In this document: positions 20,131 through 30,153 of the stretch, one piece after another
Layout of the letters: each line of letters starts with the position of its first letter
Position numbering within the stretch: the first letter of the stretch is position 1
Assembly: GCF_029581195.1 (NCBI RefSeq)
Contig: NZ_CP120737.1
Coordinates: 2,046,001 to 2,110,000, forward strand
From: Solwaraspora sp. WMMD791
GTDB lineage: Bacteria; Actinomycetota; Actinomycetes; Mycobacteriales; Micromonosporaceae
Direction: 5' to 3'
Length of the DNA stretch: 64,000 nt
Notes under the pieces: generated by a model
Database searches by the model: none
The model's input: only the letters and a program-made list of their open reading frames with translations
What the model was told of the DNA's origin: nothing
Translations under genes and position numbers: made by a program

Positions 20131-23016
20131 ATGGACACTGCGCGGAACCGGGTCGAGATGTTGGTCCTCGGTGAGGTGACGGCGCGGGTCGACGGGGTCG
20201 ATCTCGACCTGGGGCACGCCCGGCAACGCGCCGTCCTGGTCGCGCTGCTGGTCGACGCGGGCCGGCTGGTGCCCACCGACCGGCTGCTGGACCGGGTCTG
20301 GGGCGACCGGCCACCGCAGCGGGCCCGCAACGCGCTCGCCGGCTACCTGTCCCGGCTGCGGCAGGTGCTGGCCCCGGCCGACCAGGTGCGGATCGTCCGC
20401 CGGCCCGGCGGCTACCTGCTGCAGGTCGACCCGACCCAGGTCGACCTGCACCTGTTCGGCCAGCTGGTCCGGCGGGCCAGGGCCGCCGCGGCACCCGCGC
20501 GGACCGGCGGGACGCCGGCCGCCGACGATCCGGTGGCGCTGCTGACCCGGGCGCTGTCGCTGTGGCGCGGTACGCCGTTCGGCACCCTGGAATCGGCCTG
20601 GCTGGACACGGTACGCGGCGCGTTGGTCGCCGACCGGCTCGCCGCCCAACTGGACCTGGTCGACCTACGGTTGGCCGCCGGTGGACACGCCGACCTGCTC
20701 GGCGAGTTGACCACGCTGGCGGCGGAGCATCCGCTGGACGAGCGGATCGCCGGTCAGCTGATGCGGGCGCTGTACGGGGCGGGCCGCCAGGCGCAGGCGT
20801 TGCGGCACTACCAGGTGGTCCGGGCCCGGCTCGCCGACGAGCTGGGCACCGACCCGGGGGCGGCGCTGCGGCAGACGTACCACCGGATCCTGACCGCGGA
20901 CCCGGCACTGGGGACGGCGGCCGCACCACCGGCCGCGCCACCGGCCCCACGCGGCGCGCCGGAGCAGGTGGCGGGAAGCAAGCCGGCGGCGGGACGTGGG
21001 CCGGCGGCTGAGGTGCCGCGTCAGCTGCCGGCCGCGCCGACCGGCTTCACCGGCCGGGCCGCCGCCCTCGCCGCGCTGGACGCGATGGTCGACGACGCGG
21101 CGCCGCTGGCGCTGGTGACCGGCACCGCCGGGGTCGGCAAGAGCAGCCTGGTGCTGCACTGGGCACACCGGCGCGTCGACCGGTTCCCCGACGGACAGCT
21201 GTACGTGAACCTGCGCGGGTTCGACCCGGCCGGCGCGGCGCTGGACCCCGCCGAGGTGGTACGCGGATTCCTGGCCGCCCTCGGGGTCGCCCCGCAGCGG
21301 ATGCCGATCGGGCTGGCCGCGCAGACCGCCCGCTACCGCAGCCTGGTCGCCGGCCGGCGGCTGCTGATCGTGCTGGACAACGCCCGCGACGCCGACCAGG
21401 TCCGCCCGCTGCTGCCCGGCGCGCCAGGCTGTGTCACCGTGGTGACCAGCCGGGGGCAGCTGGGTGGACTGGTCGCCGTCGACGGGGCCCGGCCGGTCGC
21501 CCTGGACCTGTTCACCGACGCCGAGGCCCGACGGCTGCTGGCGACCCGGCTGGGGCGGGCCCGGGTCGACGCGGAGCCGGCCGCCGCGCAGGAGATCGTC
21601 GACCGCTGTGCCCGGCTGCCGCTGGCGCTCGCCGTCGCCTCGGCGCGGGTGCTGGTGAACCCGGCGGTCACCCTGACCGATCTGGCCGGCGAGCTGACCG
21701 AGGCCGGTGCCGGGCTCGACGCCTTCGACGGCGACGACCCGGCGGCCGACGTACGGGCGGTGTTCTCCTGGTCGTACCGGGCCCTCGACCCGGGCGCCGC
21801 TGGGCTGTTCCGGCTGATCGGGCTGCATCCGGGGCCGGAGCTGACGGTGCCGGCGGTGGCGAGCCTGGCCGGTGTCACGGTGTCCGCCGCCCGCCGGGGG
21901 TTGGCGGTGCTGACCCGCGCCAGCCTGCTCACCGAGCAGGCTCCCGGCCGGTACGTGCTGCACGACCTGCTGCGGGCGTACGCCGCCGAGCTGGCCGAGG
22001 CGCAGGAGCCGGCGGCCCGGCGACGGGCCGCGACCGCTCGGCTGCTCGACCACCTGCTGCACACCGCGTACGCCGCCGACCGGCTGCTCTACCCGCACCG
22101 CGACCCGATCATGCTGGACTGCCCGGCGTCCGGGGTGGTGGTGCCGGCGTTGGCCGACGGCGCGGCGGCGATGCGCTGGCTGGTGGCCGAGCACCGGGTG
22201 CTGCTCGGCGCGGTCGACCTGGCGGCCCGCGACCGGTGGGACCGGCACGCCTGGGAGCTCGCCTGGAGCCTGACCAGCTACGTCAACCTGCGGGCGTTGT
22301 GGCACGACCAGCTGACCGTGCAGGGTGCCGCGGTGCCGTCGGCGGTGCGGCTGGGCGACCGGGCGGCGCAGGCGCACCTGCACCGCAATCTGGGTCGGGC
22401 GTTGACCCAGCTGGACCGCACCGACGAGGCGGCCGGGCACCTGACGCAGGCCCTGGCCGGGTTCGTGGCCGTCGGGGACCGGGCCAACCAGGCGCAGACC
22501 CACGTGAACATCGCCCGGCTGCGGGAACGGCAGGGCCGCGACGTCGAGGCCCTCGACTACGACCTGCGGTCGTTGGAGCTGTACCGGCAGGCCGGGCACC
22601 TGACCGGGCAGGCGCGGGCGATGAACAACATCGCCTGGACCCGGATCCGGCTCGGCGAGCCCGAGCAGGCCCGTGAGCTGTGCCGGCAGGCGCTGGCCAT
22701 CAACACCGAGCTCGGCAACCGGCACGGAGCGGCCACCAACTGGCGTACCGCCGGTTGTGCCGAGGCGGCGGCGGGTGAGCATCGCGCGGCGGTCGACTGC
22801 CACGAACGGGCGCTGCGGTTGTTCCGCGCGATCGGTGACCGGGGCGGCGAGGCGGACACCCTGGCCGACCTCGGCGACGCCCGGTACGCCTGTGGCGAGG
22901 TCGACGCGGCCCGGATCGCCTGGGCGGCGGCGTTGGTGCTGCTGGAGGCGGCCGGCCATCCGGACGCCGCCGCCGTGCGCGCCCGGCTGACGCACCACGC
23001 CGCCCCGGTCAGCTGA
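20131..23016 (+). CDS. AfsR/SARP-family transcriptional regulator
   Basis: 961-residue regulator. The N-terminus has an OmpR-like winged helix (LGEVTARVDG, then PPQRARNALAGYLSRLR) and a bacterial transcriptional activation domain (to about residue 270). A Pro/Ala linker leads to an NB-ARC/STAND ATPase with Walker A GTAGVGKSS at 331-339 and a Walker B-like LLIVLDNARD near 411. The C-terminal ~250 residues form TPR repeats (RNLGRALTQLDRTDEAAGHL and similar). AfsR-type proteins integrate signals to activate secondary metabolism or local clusters; no biosynthetic cluster is adjacent. It diverges from a secreted-protein gene and converges on the MmyB-like regulator. Its stop lies in a tandem repeat shared with that neighbour. 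Confidence 0.92.
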   Translation: MDTARNRVEMLVLGEVTARVDGVDLDLGHARQRAVLVALLVDAGRLVPTDRLLDRVWGDRPPQRARNALAGYLSRLRQVLAPADQVRIVRRPGGYLLQVDPTQVDLHLFGQLVRRARAAAAPARTGGTPAADDPVALLTRALSLWRGTPFGTLESAWLDTVRGALVADRLAAQLDLVDLRLAAGGHADLLGELTTLAAEHPLDERIAGQLMRALYGAGRQAQALRHYQVVRARLADELGTDPGAALRQTYHRILTADPALGTAAAPPAAPPAPRGAPEQVAGSKPAAGRGPAAEVPRQLPAAPTGFTGRAAALAALDAMVDDAAPLALVTGTAGVGKSSLVLHWAHRRVDRFPDGQLYVNLRGFDPAGAALDPAEVVRGFLAALGVAPQRMPIGLAAQTARYRSLVAGRRLLIVLDNARDADQVRPLLPGAPGCVTVVTSRGQLGGLVAVDGARPVALDLFTDAEARRLLATRLGRARVDAEPAAAQEIVDRCARLPLALAVASARVLVNPAVTLTDLAGELTEAGAGLDAFDGDDPAADVRAVFSWSYRALDPGAAGLFRLIGLHPGPELTVPAVASLAGVTVSAARRGLAVLTRASLLTEQAPGRYVLHDLLRAYAAELAEAQEPAARRRAATARLLDHLLHTAYAADRLLYPHRDPIMLDCPASGVVVPALADGAAAMRWLVAEHRVLLGAVDLAARDRWDRHAWELAWSLTSYVNLRALWHDQLTVQGAAVPSAVRLGDRAAQAHLHRNLGRALTQLDRTDEAAGHLTQALAGFVAVGDRANQAQTHVNIARLRERQGRDVEALDYDLRSLELYRQAGHLTGQARAMNNIAWTRIRLGEPEQARELCRQALAINTELGNRHGAATNWRTAGCAEAAAGEHRAAVDCHERALRLFRAIGDRGGEADTLADLGDARYACGEVDAARIAWAAALVLLEAAGHPDAAAVRARLTHHAAPVS

Positions 23017-26317: not shown

Positions 26318-26959
26318 TCAGAGTTCGTCGGTGGTGATCAGCCCGTCCTGCAGGGCCCGGGCCACCAGGGCGGCCTTGGTCGGCGCCTCCCGGCCGACGT
26401 TGGCGTACTTGACCCGGACCCGTTCCAGGCAGGAGTTGACCCGGTGCACGGTCAGGCGCAGCCGGTGGGCGACCATCTCCTTCGACTCGGAGTGGAACCA
26501 TTCGATCAGCACCTGATGTTCACGCGGCGACAGCCGGGGACGTTGCGGGCGTTCGTCGGTGCCGAACGCCCCGGCCAGCGCCGGCGAGGTGTACGGCGTA
26601 CCGGCTGCGGCGGCGGTGACCGCGGCGACCAGGTGATCGGCGCCCTCGGCCTTGGTGAGGTAGGTGAACGCGCCGATGTCCAGGGCGGTCAGGGCGCTGT
26701 CCCGGTCGTCGCGCATGCTGTACACGACGACCTGACGGCCGGCGTCGACGAGCCGTTTCAGATCGCCGTACGCCGGTCCGGTGACGTCGAGCTGCAGGTC
26801 GAGGACGACCACGTCGGCACTCGCGCCGGGGTCGAGCCAGGCGACGGCGACGGTGGGGCCGGCGGCGACGACCTCGATCGGCGGGTCGGCCAGTGCGCAC
26901 CAGGCACGCACCCCGGCGACGACGACGGGGTGGTCGTCCACGACTACCGCAGTGATCAT
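26318..26959 (-). CDS. LuxR/NarL-type response regulator
   Basis: 213-residue two-component regulator. The receiver domain begins ITAVVVDDHPVVVAG, with acidic pocket, phospho-acceptor Asp in VVVLDLQLD and the conserved Lys in YLTKAEG. The C-terminal helix-turn-helix is LSPREHQVLIEWF to VNSCLERVRVKYANVG, somewhat divergent from the usual LuxR consensus. The ATG at 26959 overlaps the stop of the kinase gene (ATGA); the longer frame from 26992 lies inside the kinase. Forms a coupled pair with the kinase. Target genes unknown; the HtrA-like operon divergent to the kinase is a candidate. Confidence 0.9.
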   Translation of the reverse strand: MITAVVVDDHPVVVAGVRAWCALADPPIEVVAAGPTVAVAWLDPGASADVVVLDLQLDVTGPAYGDLKRLVDAGRQVVVYSMRDDRDSALTALDIGAFTYLTKAEGADHLVAAVTAAAAGTPYTSPALAGAFGTDERPQRPRLSPREHQVLIEWFHSESKEMVAHRLRLTVHRVNSCLERVRVKYANVGREAPTKAALVARALQDGLITTDEL

Positions 26960-29199
26960 TGTTCTCCTTGCCAGGTGGCCTGGATCCAGCACCGACCGCC
27001 GGTGACCATGGTGGACAGCTGGACCCCGTCGGCGGTGGGCGTCGGCGGCGGGGGCGGGCAGACGGCGACGACGCTGACGGTCACCGACCGGCCGGTGCTG
27101 GCCACGGTGAGCCGGGCCGCCGTACCGCTGCGGGCGGTGGCGAGGGCGGCGATCGCCGGCTCGACGAGCCGCCGGCGCACCGGCGGCGGCAGCTCGCGGC
27201 GGGTGCCCCGGTCGGCGAAGGTCACCGTGACCCCGTTGCGTTCGGCCAGTTCGATGCAGGCCCGTAGTTCGTGGGCGAGGGAGTCGGCGGTGCCGGTGTC
27301 CTCGGCGACGAGCCGACGCATCCGGGCGGCTTCGGCCGCACAGGACCGGCGGACCGCCTCGTCGCCGGGGTCAAGCTCGTCGCGGGCCAGGCCGTCGAGC
27401 AGCGGTACGGCGGTGGCCGCCAGCGCCGACATCCGGTCGGTGCGGTCGGCGTGCAGGTGCCGGGCGACCGCCTCGGCGGTGCGTACCTGCTCGGCGGCGC
27501 CCAGCGCCTTCGCCGACGAGGTCGCCATGGCGCGCAGCACGGCGGCGATCATCGCGATCGCGAGCTGGAAGGCGAGCACCGCCCAGGTGGCGCTGACCGC
27601 ACCGGCGACGCTCAGGGCGGCCTCGCCGGCGAGAGCGGCCTGCCCGAACGTCATCAGGTACTGGGCGGCGAGGACGGCAGCGAAGGCTGCGACCCGGGTG
27701 TCCAACATCAACAGCACGACCTGCCAGCCGGCGTCGCCTTCGGACCAGTGCGCCGGGCCGAGCAGGTACGCCGGGCGCACCGAGGAGGTCGCCAGCGCGG
27801 ACAGCCCGAAGACCAGCGCGAGCAGCGGCAGCCGCCACCGGCCGAGCGGGCGGTCGCGCCAGGTGGCGACGCCCACGACCAGGGTCACCGCCGTCAGGCC
27901 GGCCCAGGTGAGCAGTTGCGGCCAGAGCGAGGTGTACGCCTCGCGGCTGGCCAGCAGCCGGGGCAGGTCGAGCAGCAGCAGGATCGCCAGGCTCAGCACG
28001 ACGACGGCCCAGCGCAGTCCCCGCTGGAACGAGGCGGCGATGACGTCCTGGTCGGTGCCGACGACCTCGGACACCGTCCGGGGGCAGGTCAGGGTGACGG
28101 TGGTGCCGTGGCCGGGGCGGGCGTCGATCCGGGCCTGACCGCCGATGCGGGTCATCCGCTCGGCAAGGGAGCGGGTCACCCCGTACCGGTCGGGGCGGAC
28201 CTGGGCCGGGTCGAAGCCGACGCCCCGGTCGATGATCGACACGGTGACCTGGTCGGGGCTCTGGTCGGCCCGGACCTCGGCCCGGTCGGTACCGGCGTGC
28301 CGGGCCACGTTGGTCAGCGCCTCGCGGACGCTGCGGCTGAGCGCCACGGCGTCGGCGGCCGGCAGCGACAGTCGGTCGGGGGTGTGCCAGGTGACCTGTA
28401 CGGCGGCGGTGGCGGCGTCACGCAGCAGCGGGACCAGGTCGGTCTCGCCCTGGGCGACGTCCGCGGAGCGTCGCAGTTCCCGCAGGTCGCGGCGGGCCTG
28501 GTCGGCGAGCCACTGCGAGTTGCCGGTCAGTACGCCGTTGCCGACCATCAGCAGGGTCGCGGCGGCGGTGTCGTGCAGCGCCGCGAGGTACTCCCGTTCG
28601 TCGCGCCGGCGGGCCGCCGCGATCGCCGCCGCCCGGCGCAGCTGCGCGGCGCGGTCGACGGCCCGGTCGGCGGCGCGGGCACCGCGCCGGACGAACCGGT
28701 ACAGCCCCCAGGAGAGCGCCGCCTGCGCCGCCGTCCAGGGACCGATCGCCGGGTCGGCGAGCCAGCCGCCCGGGTCGGCCAGGGTCGCGCCGACGAAGTA
28801 GGCGGCCACGATCGCGACGGTGCCGCTGGCGAGCAGCGGCCAGTCGACCTGCCAGGGGTAGGTGACGACGACCAGGTTCACGACGACGAGGACCCAGGTC
28901 GATCCGCCGCGCGGGTCCGACACGACGGTCCAGGTCTGGGTGAGGCAGGCACCGCAGACCACCGCGACGTCGACCAGCGGCAGCCATCGACGGGCCCGGC
29001 GGGAGCCGCGTGCCAGGGCGACGGCGTAGCCCAGACTCCAGCCGTTGAGCGCCAGCACCACGGCCACGGCCACCGCCGGGTCGGGTGCGGCGCCGACGGC
29101 CAGGTAGACCGCGCTGGACAGTCCGATCACGACCGTACGCAGACCGAGCGCGTACCGCAGCCCGTGACGGAGAAGCCGCTGTTCCACCGCGCCCGGCAC
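26956..29199 (-). CDS. Double-module membrane sensor histidine kinase
   Basis: 747-residue kinase with two similar halves. Module 1: about five membrane helices (residues 20-170), a dimerisation/phospho-acceptor helix with His209 (EYLAALHDTAA), N-box SVREALTNVARHAG (290-303), G1 DRGVGF (324-329) and G2 GHGTTVTL. Module 2 begins near 395 with about five further membrane helices, then a helix AVARHLHADRTDRM near 575-590 and a C-terminal ATPase-like region that lacks clear N, G1 and G2 boxes and ends in a Pro-rich loop. Typical NarL-partner kinases of this family are 350-450 residues, so this looks like fusion or duplication with a degenerate second half, perhaps sensory or autoinhibitory. Overlaps its response regulator by 4 bases. 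Confidence 0.87.
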   Translation of the reverse strand: MPGAVEQRLLRHGLRYALGLRTVVIGLSSAVYLAVGAAPDPAVAVAVVLALNGWSLGYAVALARGSRRARRWLPLVDVAVVCGACLTQTWTVVSDPRGGSTWVLVVVNLVVVTYPWQVDWPLLASGTVAIVAAYFVGATLADPGGWLADPAIGPWTAAQAALSWGLYRFVRRGARAADRAVDRAAQLRRAAAIAAARRRDEREYLAALHDTAAATLLMVGNGVLTGNSQWLADQARRDLRELRRSADVAQGETDLVPLLRDAATAAVQVTWHTPDRLSLPAADAVALSRSVREALTNVARHAGTDRAEVRADQSPDQVTVSIIDRGVGFDPAQVRPDRYGVTRSLAERMTRIGGQARIDARPGHGTTVTLTCPRTVSEVVGTDQDVIAASFQRGLRWAVVVLSLAILLLLDLPRLLASREAYTSLWPQLLTWAGLTAVTLVVGVATWRDRPLGRWRLPLLALVFGLSALATSSVRPAYLLGPAHWSEGDAGWQVVLLMLDTRVAAFAAVLAAQYLMTFGQAALAGEAALSVAGAVSATWAVLAFQLAIAMIAAVLRAMATSSAKALGAAEQVRTAEAVARHLHADRTDRMSALAATAVPLLDGLARDELDPGDEAVRRSCAAEAARMRRLVAEDTGTADSLAHELRACIELAERNGVTVTFADRGTRRELPPPVRRRLVEPAIAALATARSGTAARLTVASTGRSVTVSVVAVCPPPPPTPTADGVQLSTMVTGGRCWIQATWQGEQ

Positions 29200-29331
29200 G
29201 GCCCTGATCGTATCGACGCCGCGCCACGCTCCGGAGCGTCGATGGGGGTCGAACGACCATCACCGACCCCCCACCAGCGCACTTACGCTCGATCACACAG
29301 GTGGGACGGTGAGTGGTCTCATGGGGGTGTC

Positions 29332-30153
29332 ATGGCAACGGGGATGCTGCGCTGGGCCGCCGCGACAGGGCTCACGGCCGTACTGATCGCGCTCACGGTG
29401 ACCGTCACCGTCCAGGCGGGGCAGATCGATCAGCTGCGCGACGATCTGGCCGGGGCGCAGCGGACCGCGCAGGACACCGCCGACGGCACCGACCAGCGGC
29501 TGGACAGCCTGGCCGGCCGGCTCGCCGCAGTCGAGGACGACGCCCAGCAGGCCTTCGACCCGCCGGCGGTCGCCGCCGCCGTGCTGCCCAGCGTCTTCCA
29601 GGTGATCGCCGACGACTTCTCCGGCAGCGCCTTCGCCGTCGCCCGACCTGGGGAGGCAGGGTCCGGTGAGAGCGCGTCCGGAGGCACCGGCCGGACCAAC
29701 GTGCTGACCGCCTTCCACGTGATCGAGTCGGTGTGGACGGCCGACGGCAGGTCGGTGCAGCTGGAACGCGACGGCAAGCGGTACACGGCGGTGATCGCCG
29801 ACGTGGATCCGTCGCAGGACATCGCCCTGCTGAAGGTCGACACCACCTTCGCCGGGCTGCCGGCCGCCGCCGGTCCTCCCGGCCCCGGCGAGAGCGTCCT
29901 GGTCGTCGGCGCGCCGCTCGGGCTCACCCAGACCATCACCACCGGCGTGGTCAGCGCGGTCCGGGACCGCACCGACGGCCCCGGATCAGTGATCCAGTTC
30001 GACGCGCCGGTCAACCCCGGCAACTCCGGCGGCCCGGTCATCAACACCCGCAAGGAGGTCGTGGGGATCGCCACCGCGAAGGCCCGCGACGCGGAGGGCA
30101 TCGGACTCGCCGTACCGATCCGGACCGCCTGCGAGACCTTCCACGTCTGCTGA
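29332..30153 (+). CDS. Membrane-anchored HtrA/trypsin-like serine protease
   Basis: 273-residue protein. An uncleaved signal-anchor (about residues 5-28) is followed by a short coiled coil (GQIDQLRDDLAGAQRTAQD) and a trypsin-fold domain with His129 (AFHVIE), Asp163 (SQDIALL) and Ser232 (PGNSGGPV), the HtrA pattern. The usual PDZ domain is absent. It probably cleaves or senses damaged proteins outside the membrane. ATG 29332 starts right before the hydrophobic segment. The next two genes also encode one-helix extracytoplasmic proteins with short spacing, so the three likely form an operon; divergent to the double-module kinase. Confidence 0.88.
   Translation: MATGMLRWAAATGLTAVLIALTVTVTVQAGQIDQLRDDLAGAQRTAQDTADGTDQRLDSLAGRLAAVEDDAQQAFDPPAVAAAVLPSVFQVIADDFSGSAFAVARPGEAGSGESASGGTGRTNVLTAFHVIESVWTADGRSVQLERDGKRYTAVIADVDPSQDIALLKVDTTFAGLPAAAGPPGPGESVLVVGAPLGLTQTITTGVVSAVRDRTDGPGSVIQFDAPVNPGNSGGPVINTRKEVVGIATAKARDAEGIGLAVPIRTACETFHVC

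Follow-up and report, generated by a model that had tools for sequence, protein, structure and literature searches.

A membrane histidine kinase joined to a paralogous pseudokinase in Solwaraspora and related actinobacteria: a probable pseudo-heterodimeric sensor

Introduction

Pseudokinase partners of histidine kinases and signalling systems of three parts are already known; what we found described nowhere is a conserved tandem in one chain, with a second module that Pfam and NCBIfam leave unrecognised. A literature search, with coverage mostly outside subscription journals, returned no published description of this kinase–pseudokinase family. Here we describe such a tandem from Solwaraspora sp. 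WMMD791, encoded in a 64,000-nt stretch of NZ_CP120737.1 (forward-strand positions 2,046,001–2,110,000; hereafter "the window", in whose numbering all coordinates are given). An original prediction, made from the DNA letters, had placed a single 747-residue chain at 26956–29199, and an open reading frame (ORF) of 747 aa with a GTG start is indeed present there on the minus strand. The chain is a fused kinase–pseudokinase pair that probably works as a pseudo-heterodimer, with the sensing role in a three-part signalling unit of actinobacteria. We refer to its first half as module 1 and to its second half as module 2.

Among the closest described systems, FasB/FasC/FasA of group A Streptococcus likewise comprises two adjacent kinase-like membrane proteins and one regulator; FasB and FasC heterodimerise in a two-hybrid assay and FasC is a proposed pseudokinase, which sets a precedent for pairing of this kind (PMC12675982). 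According to the same account, however, Fas divides the functional ATP domain (on FasB) and the key histidine (His246 of FasC) between its partners. In the present system both belong to module 1, module 2 has neither, and a single chain can contain the two partners. AbrC1/C2/C3 of Streptomyces coelicolor, like the present system, combines two kinases with one regulator in an actinobacterium, but the Abr kinases are reported to be 57% identical to each other (PMC3098853), compared with ~22% for the two halves here, one of which is catalytically empty. We therefore rejected an assignment to the AbrC type of three-component system, given this low identity and a second half without catalytic residues. 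RcsC and RcsD of enterobacteria also combine an active kinase with a structurally similar partner whose kinase domain is inactive, and share one regulator; as described, RcsD has an Hpt domain and relays phosphate, and the Rcs proteins are separate homodimers (PMC13317618), whereas Pfam finds no Hpt domain in module 2.

Two transmitter domains in one non-hybrid kinase were counted in 2 of 15,704 surveyed (PMC3018481), and PMC7516205 and PMC12623338 report ordinary two-component systems. CqsS, the quorum-sensing kinase of Vibrio harveyi, resembles the present chain as a six-helix receptor kinase, and adenylyl cyclases accept its membrane part in place of their own; unlike this chain it is, by its description, one six-helix receptor (PMC4821796, PMC12414865).

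Results

The chain consists of two homologous halves

A six-helix membrane bundle is predicted in each half of the chain, together with a coiled coil and a core resembling that of histidine kinases, and the similarity of the halves exceeds what chance would give. Their profiles align over almost the full length (hhalign: 99.4% probability, E 1.5e-20, 344 columns, 22% identity; 47-row profiles), and a second hhalign comparison with 19-row profiles gave a probability of 98.3% (E 2.4e-14, 276 columns). Profiles were needed to establish this homology because single-sequence BLASTP of half against half was not significant (E 0.21), returning a weak ungapped stretch around the histidine that was in register, with His209 opposite Ala594, Asp210 opposite Ala595 and Thr211 opposite Thr596. 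That the long chain arose from a frameshift, or from two genes read through by chance, was ruled out, as the same single frame occurs in 17 further loci at 51–69% identity.

AlphaFold predicts six helices in the membrane part of module 1 (residues 1–172, window 28684–29199, minus strand as for all parts of the kinase; helices 4–35, 41–64, 67–86, 102–116, 120–141 and 152–220) and six in that of module 2 (residues 384–556, 27532–28050; helices 384–417, 426–447, 453–472, 490–498, 503–523 and 531–605). This agrees with the two membrane bundles of the original prediction, although plain hydropathy resolves fewer distinct segments: with the cut-off set at 1.6, the six stretches of module 1 overlap and collapse into three regions (17–63, 75–93 and 121–141), and module 2 gives four.

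Module 1 retains a complete kinase

Module 1 (residues ~1–380) carries His209-Asp210-Thr211 (28567–28575) in its coiled coil and dimerisation/phosphotransfer helices (residues 173–250, 28450–28683), followed by a catalytic ATP-binding (CA) domain (residues 251–375, 28075–28449) with the N (Asn297), G1 (Asp324/Gly326/Gly328) and G2 (Gly340, Gly363/Gly365) boxes. Pfam matches HATPase_c at residues 283–374 of the window protein with an E of 2.1e-11, and PF02518 is matched by the module 1 of 19/19 members. A genome search yielded 68 distinct systems after removal of the duplicate loci L057, L060 and L063. Among these, His209 and Asp324 are kept in all 68; Asp210 (with one Glu in its place), Thr211, Asn297, Gly326, Gly328, Gly340 and Gly363 in 67 each; and Gly365 in 64. 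A DxGxG string is present in 67/68. The complete His/N/G1/G2 set that had been read into the first module, with its phospho-histidine at residue 209, is thus found as predicted and conserved across the family.

We take the HDT motif to place module 1 with the HisKA_3 kinases, a label that rests partly on structural matches of the whole-chain model to DesK and VraS (VIA-align); for the whole protein, no HisKA_3 match was listed by Pfam at E up to 10, HMMER filters being known to drop weak matches. In a DxxxQ motif after the phospho-histidine, the glutamine is tied to phosphatase activity. At this position module 1 has Ala214 (28558–28560), and Gln occurs in 0/68 systems; the phosphatase activity of module 1 may differ from the usual. 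The neighbouring Thr215 is kept in 67/68.

The best NCBIfam match, to the MacS family sensor kinase (NF047322; residues 20–373, E 5.9e-27), does not reach module 2, and membership in that family was rejected at 94.8 bits against a cut-off of 300. HATPase_c and HATPase_c_2 are the only Pfam families above cut-off in the whole chain. A hybrid histidine kinase was likewise rejected, as Pfam detects neither a receiver nor an Hpt domain.

Module 2 has lost the catalytic residues and conserves others

In the window protein, the module 2 residues aligned with the H, N and G1 positions are Ala594, Thr688 and Ala712/Cys714/Pro716. Ala594 takes the phospho-histidine position within the coiled coil and pseudo-dimerisation helices (residues 557–639, 27283–27531), and the pseudo-catalytic domain that follows (residues 640–747, 26959–27282) is devoid of the N, G1 and G2 residues. 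Across the 68 systems, the aligned histidine position is occupied by Ala 21 times, by Leu 12 times and by His twice, while Asn at the aligned N position and Asp at the aligned G1 position each occur in 0. Module 2 keeps a set of its own instead: Trp485 in 65 systems, Trp492 in 62, Pro611 in 66, Arg628, in the pseudo-dimerisation helices, in all 68, Arg675 in 64 and Trp743, in the pseudo-catalytic domain, in 66. The loop HWSEGDAGW (residues 484–492, 27724–27750), predicted to lie outside the membrane, is invariant in 18/18 close fused orthologs.

In 17/17 close fused orthologs, some of which are near-copies of one another, module 2 is nearer to the window protein than module 1 (mean identity 61.9 vs 53.9%; range for module 2, 55–72%). 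When the membrane and cytosolic parts of both modules are compared, the closest of the four is the membrane part of module 2, at a mean of 64.2% vs 49.5% for that of module 1; the pseudo-dimerisation helices of module 2 reach 67% and the dimerisation helices of module 1 65%. Judged from its sequence, module 2 is a maintained pseudokinase with a conserved signature of its own, beyond mere decay.

No above-cut-off match in Pfam or NCBIfam covers residues 384–747 of the window protein, and in 19/19 members no kinase family of either database matches module 2 at E up to 0.01; family-based annotation therefore probably misses its kinase likeness. Matches to Histidyl-tRNA synthetase and siroheme synthase, each in one of the 19 members, were taken as chance. 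Compared by sequence with solved structures, module 2 returned no kinase, and two human receptor matches (E 0.18 and 0.33) were taken as chance as well.

Module 2 is predicted to adopt a kinase-like fold

The full-length AlphaFold model (mean predicted local distance difference test, pLDDT, 78.5; predicted template modelling score, pTM, 0.56) has the same series in both halves: six membrane helices, then one long helix, then a kinase core. For the cytosolic part of module 2 alone (residues 572–747), a fold was predicted with a pLDDT of 85.4, and module 2 is predicted to be ATPase-like because this fold matches histidine-kinase CA domains in both Foldseek and VIA-align. Among the best 50 Foldseek rows, headed by CusS, DesK and AdeS, 49 are histidine kinases or of the kinase family (bacteriophytochrome and, at rank 15, DivL included) and one is a "phosphotransferase". 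The best 50 rows of VIA-align, which re-ranks Foldseek's own first 1000 chains, comprise 47 histidine kinases and 3 plant phytochromes, with the CA domain of Mycobacterium tuberculosis DosS at the top (Z 12.7, root-mean-square deviation (rmsd) 2.3, 106 residues). The original prediction had proposed structure prediction as a check and an outcome in which module 2 is not ATPase-like as its refutation; the opposite was obtained, and the claim of duplicated membrane and ATPase modules in one chain is supported by the profile homology of the halves together with the kinase-like predicted fold of both.

With the whole chain as query, 11 of the first 12 VIA-align rows are membrane adenylyl cyclases, among them AC9 (7pde; Z 19.3, rmsd 4.4, 355 residues), AC8 (Z 18.9, 391 residues) and AC5 (Z 16.9); the twelfth is the CA domain of VraS, and kinase ATPase domains stand below. 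The cyclase matches span residues 1 to ~575–590, i.e. both membrane bundles and the coiled coils. In the predicted model, the chain shares with these cyclases tandem six-helix bundles, long helices and two homologous cytosolic halves, but the cytosolic domains are unrelated (kinase vs cyclase) and identity is 10–13%, at which common descent is not shown. By the tool's own note, mostly helical models reach Z 13–14 without known kinship, and the cyclase likeness is therefore one of arrangement in a predicted model, with descent unproven. Class III adenylyl cyclase was rejected as an assignment, no cyclase family being among the Pfam matches listed up to E 10.

The two modules occur fused and split

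Of the 68 systems, 28 are encoded as one chain; in the other 40, separate genes for module 1 and module 2 adjoin each other in that order. In 40/40 split systems the reading frame of module 2 is already open where module 1 terminates, and in 38/40 the closest candidate start codon for module 2 precedes the end of the module 1 stop by 4 to 14 bases. As picking the nearest start favours overlap, control positions were needed; 2000 were drawn within module 2 without changing the frame, and 28% of them give such an overlap. The putative stop/start overlap is as expected of 1:1 partners, and the finding that the modules come paired, whether in a single chain or in overlapping genes, supports the proposal that they act jointly.

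A quick tree built from the two halves joined together requires at least three changes between the fused and the split state. The 18 close fused kinases, the window's among them, nest among split systems with a Shimodaira–Hasegawa-like approximate likelihood ratio (SH-aLRT) support of 99–100 on a tree whose root is not known. Since these fused rows nest next to split ones, the tree suggests a fusion event in the lineage of the window protein.

One genome (G168) holds two split systems ~6.5 kb apart (L086) and a third elsewhere (L043). The kinase of L014 (G339), from a 12.4-Mb genome whose record is titled Rhodococcus rhodnii NRRL B-16535, nests inside Kibdelosporangium, and the strain is probably misnamed.

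The system has a limited distribution and usually includes a regulator

The genome samples searched overlap, and the window's own genome is included each time. Module 2 was found in 29/150 genomes of the order and in 1/149 across the phylum (E up to 1e-15). Searches with the whole protein matched 30/200 genomes of the order (E up to 1e-30) and 6/148 of the class (E up to 1e-25). Because the window's own genome was the only one matched across the phylum, the module 2 family looks confined to part of the class; the named families carrying the kinase/pseudokinase system are Micromonosporaceae and Pseudonocardiaceae. Within the window's own genome, the module 2 profile matches itself and one very weak place (E 8.7e-4).

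A response regulator gene of the NarL/LuxR type (26318–26992, minus strand) lies directly downstream of the kinase. Its product matches Response_reg (Pfam, E 3.2e-11), and the LuxR-type helix-turn-helix family GerE scores below its cut-off (12.4 vs 23.5). The true start of the regulator is likely the ATG at 26959, which would overlap the kinase stop as ATGA, and the regulator is presumably the cognate partner of the kinase. Thirty strong module 2 matches were examined over 1.5 kb on each side: 30/30 are immediately preceded by module 1 (broken into two frames in L102) and have a regulator match on their strand, and module 2 without module 1 was seen in none. This count includes loci from the whole-protein search and the window's own; of the 35 module 2 matches in the order, L038 and four weaker ones stand outside it, and the weak own-genome match L090 was dropped. 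A response regulator is thus usually part of the unit.

At five loci (L010, L012, L014, L023 and L025), a fused kinase without a nearby regulator occurs in the same genome as a separate split pair (L074–L078). The split loci of four Kibdelosporangium genomes and the Rhodococcus-titled one hold a regulator, a second regulator and a small further kinase. Five Saccharopolyspora loci (L016, L018, L020, L021 and L024) likewise have a regulator and then a second one (32–34% identical), along with a short kinase of ~220–245 aa that is matched only over the kinase core.

Neighbouring genes

Besides the regulator, ORF clustering over 18 loci gave no trustworthy shared partner gene, mainly returning antisense noise of GC-rich DNA. 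In the window, a Trypsin-like protease gene (29314–30153, plus strand; Trypsin_2, E 4.1e-24) is divergent from the kinase and lies within a longer spurious ORF, and a large SARP/AfsR-like regulator with BTAD, NB-ARC-like and TPR parts is encoded at 20131–23016 on the plus strand.

Discussion

We propose a three-part unit composed of an active six-helix membrane histidine kinase, a paralogous pseudokinase of like build and, usually, a NarL-type response regulator. The two halves would pair within the chain, or in trans when split, as a pseudo-symmetric heterodimer, in which module 2 would contribute the other half of both the membrane bundle and the four-helix dimerisation core while neither binding ATP normally nor carrying phosphate. 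Module 1 would phosphorylate His209 within its own half: in a 1:1 pair, module 1 alone has a recognisable phospho-histidine and ATP site, and such phosphorylation of its own histidine would allow module 2 to act via the shared helix bundle and the membrane part. A signal would be felt by the 12-helix membrane part, for which the module 2 loop HWSEGDAGW is the best candidate site, and would turn module 1 on or off via the paired coiled coils, the phosphate then passing to the response regulator. We infer that the two modules form a heterodimer and that module 2 regulates module 1, in keeping with the intramolecular regulator that the original prediction thought possible.

Histidine kinases are normally homodimers, and the chain could instead form a conventional dimer with a module 1–module 1 and a module 2–module 2 layer, module 2 being an accessory sensor as proposed for RcsC/RcsD, for which cryo-electron microscopy backs homodimers and the authors predict heterotetramers (PMC13317618). 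The model nevertheless packs both membrane bundles like a pseudo-dimer, albeit with a predictor that was given a single chain, and the overlapping genes and repeated changes of state fit a 1:1 pair, so that we regard such layers as rather unlikely. Module 2 might also be mainly a membrane receptor or scaffold whose cytosolic part holds the regulator or another protein near module 1, with no pairing of helices. The closeness of its membrane part to the window protein (64% on average in the 17 close orthologs) and the conserved residues of its pseudo-catalytic domain would suit this role, for which DivL, a pseudokinase that senses a regulator (PMC4211667), offers an example; yet conservation of the pseudo-dimerisation helices matches that of the module 1 helices (67 vs 65%) and the invariant Arg628 would fit a helix–helix contact, which makes a pure scaffold improbable. 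That module 2 is a decaying, functionless duplicate is scarcely credible: its catalytic residues are gone, but it has invariant residues of its own, keeps 55–72% identity to the window protein in the 17 orthologs, never appears without module 1 in the 30 loci and has persisted as a long-standing separate open gene in 40/68 systems.

Several observations weigh against a kinase–pseudokinase heterodimer feeding an adjacent regulator. In module 2, the column after the G1 Asp is Asp in 40/68 rows and Glu in 11/68, perhaps a displaced vestige of that residue; DxGxG appears in the last 130 residues of 4/68 rows, the aligned histidine is retained in 2/68, and His583 (27451–27453), 11 residues before the aligned phospho-histidine position, is invariant in 18/18 close fused orthologs. 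As to the "only remnants" that the original prediction saw in the second module, the catalytic residues of the window protein are replaced, with Val713 in the column after G1; a trace may persist in relatives. In a wider set of 19 rows, module 2 is nearer to the window protein in 12/18 rows and further in 6, and the notion that it is always the more conserved half, which holds in 17/17 close orthologs, was rejected on these counts. The whole-chain model is of middling confidence, with a pTM of 0.56 and pLDDT, by tens of residues, of 60–76 across 481–560. A regulator is lacking within 5 kb flanks in 5/18 close fused kinases (four Kibdelosporangium, one titled Rhodococcus), and these five records carry a 74–75% identical regulator elsewhere, adjoining a split module 1 and module 2 pair; the fused kinases concerned may feed that distant regulator or be orphans. 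Conversely, the related regulator L081 of Kibdelosporangium persicum has no adjoining kinase of the same family. From other systems, the active and inactive Rcs kinases are reported as homodimers, a 1:1 heterodimer being thought unlikely (PMC13317618), and a truncated ChrS pseudokinase gave no heterodimer in a two-hybrid assay (PMC9491836). The same source reports that the native actinobacterial kinases ChrS and HrrS do form heterodimers.

The proposed pseudo-heterodimer of kinase and pseudokinase invites a more specific comparison. Membrane adenylyl cyclases are described as pseudo-heterodimers (PMC9433096), and the chain could be their histidine-kinase counterpart, a 12-helix pseudo-heterodimeric receptor kinase with one catalytic and one regulatory half, encoded in a single chain or in two overlapping genes; we put this forward tentatively, as a possible but somewhat doubtful extension. 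The role of the tandem six-helix bundles in mammalian adenylyl cyclases has been called an open question (PMC12414865). If the resemblance holds, the present family would provide a tractable bacterial parallel, in which bacteria would show what tandem bundles sense and how their asymmetry is used. Since natural split versions allow the halves to be made and mixed separately, the role of the pseudokinase half is cleanly testable. While histidine kinases are usually homodimers, nature here presents an active kinase with a steady dead partner, in both fused and split form.

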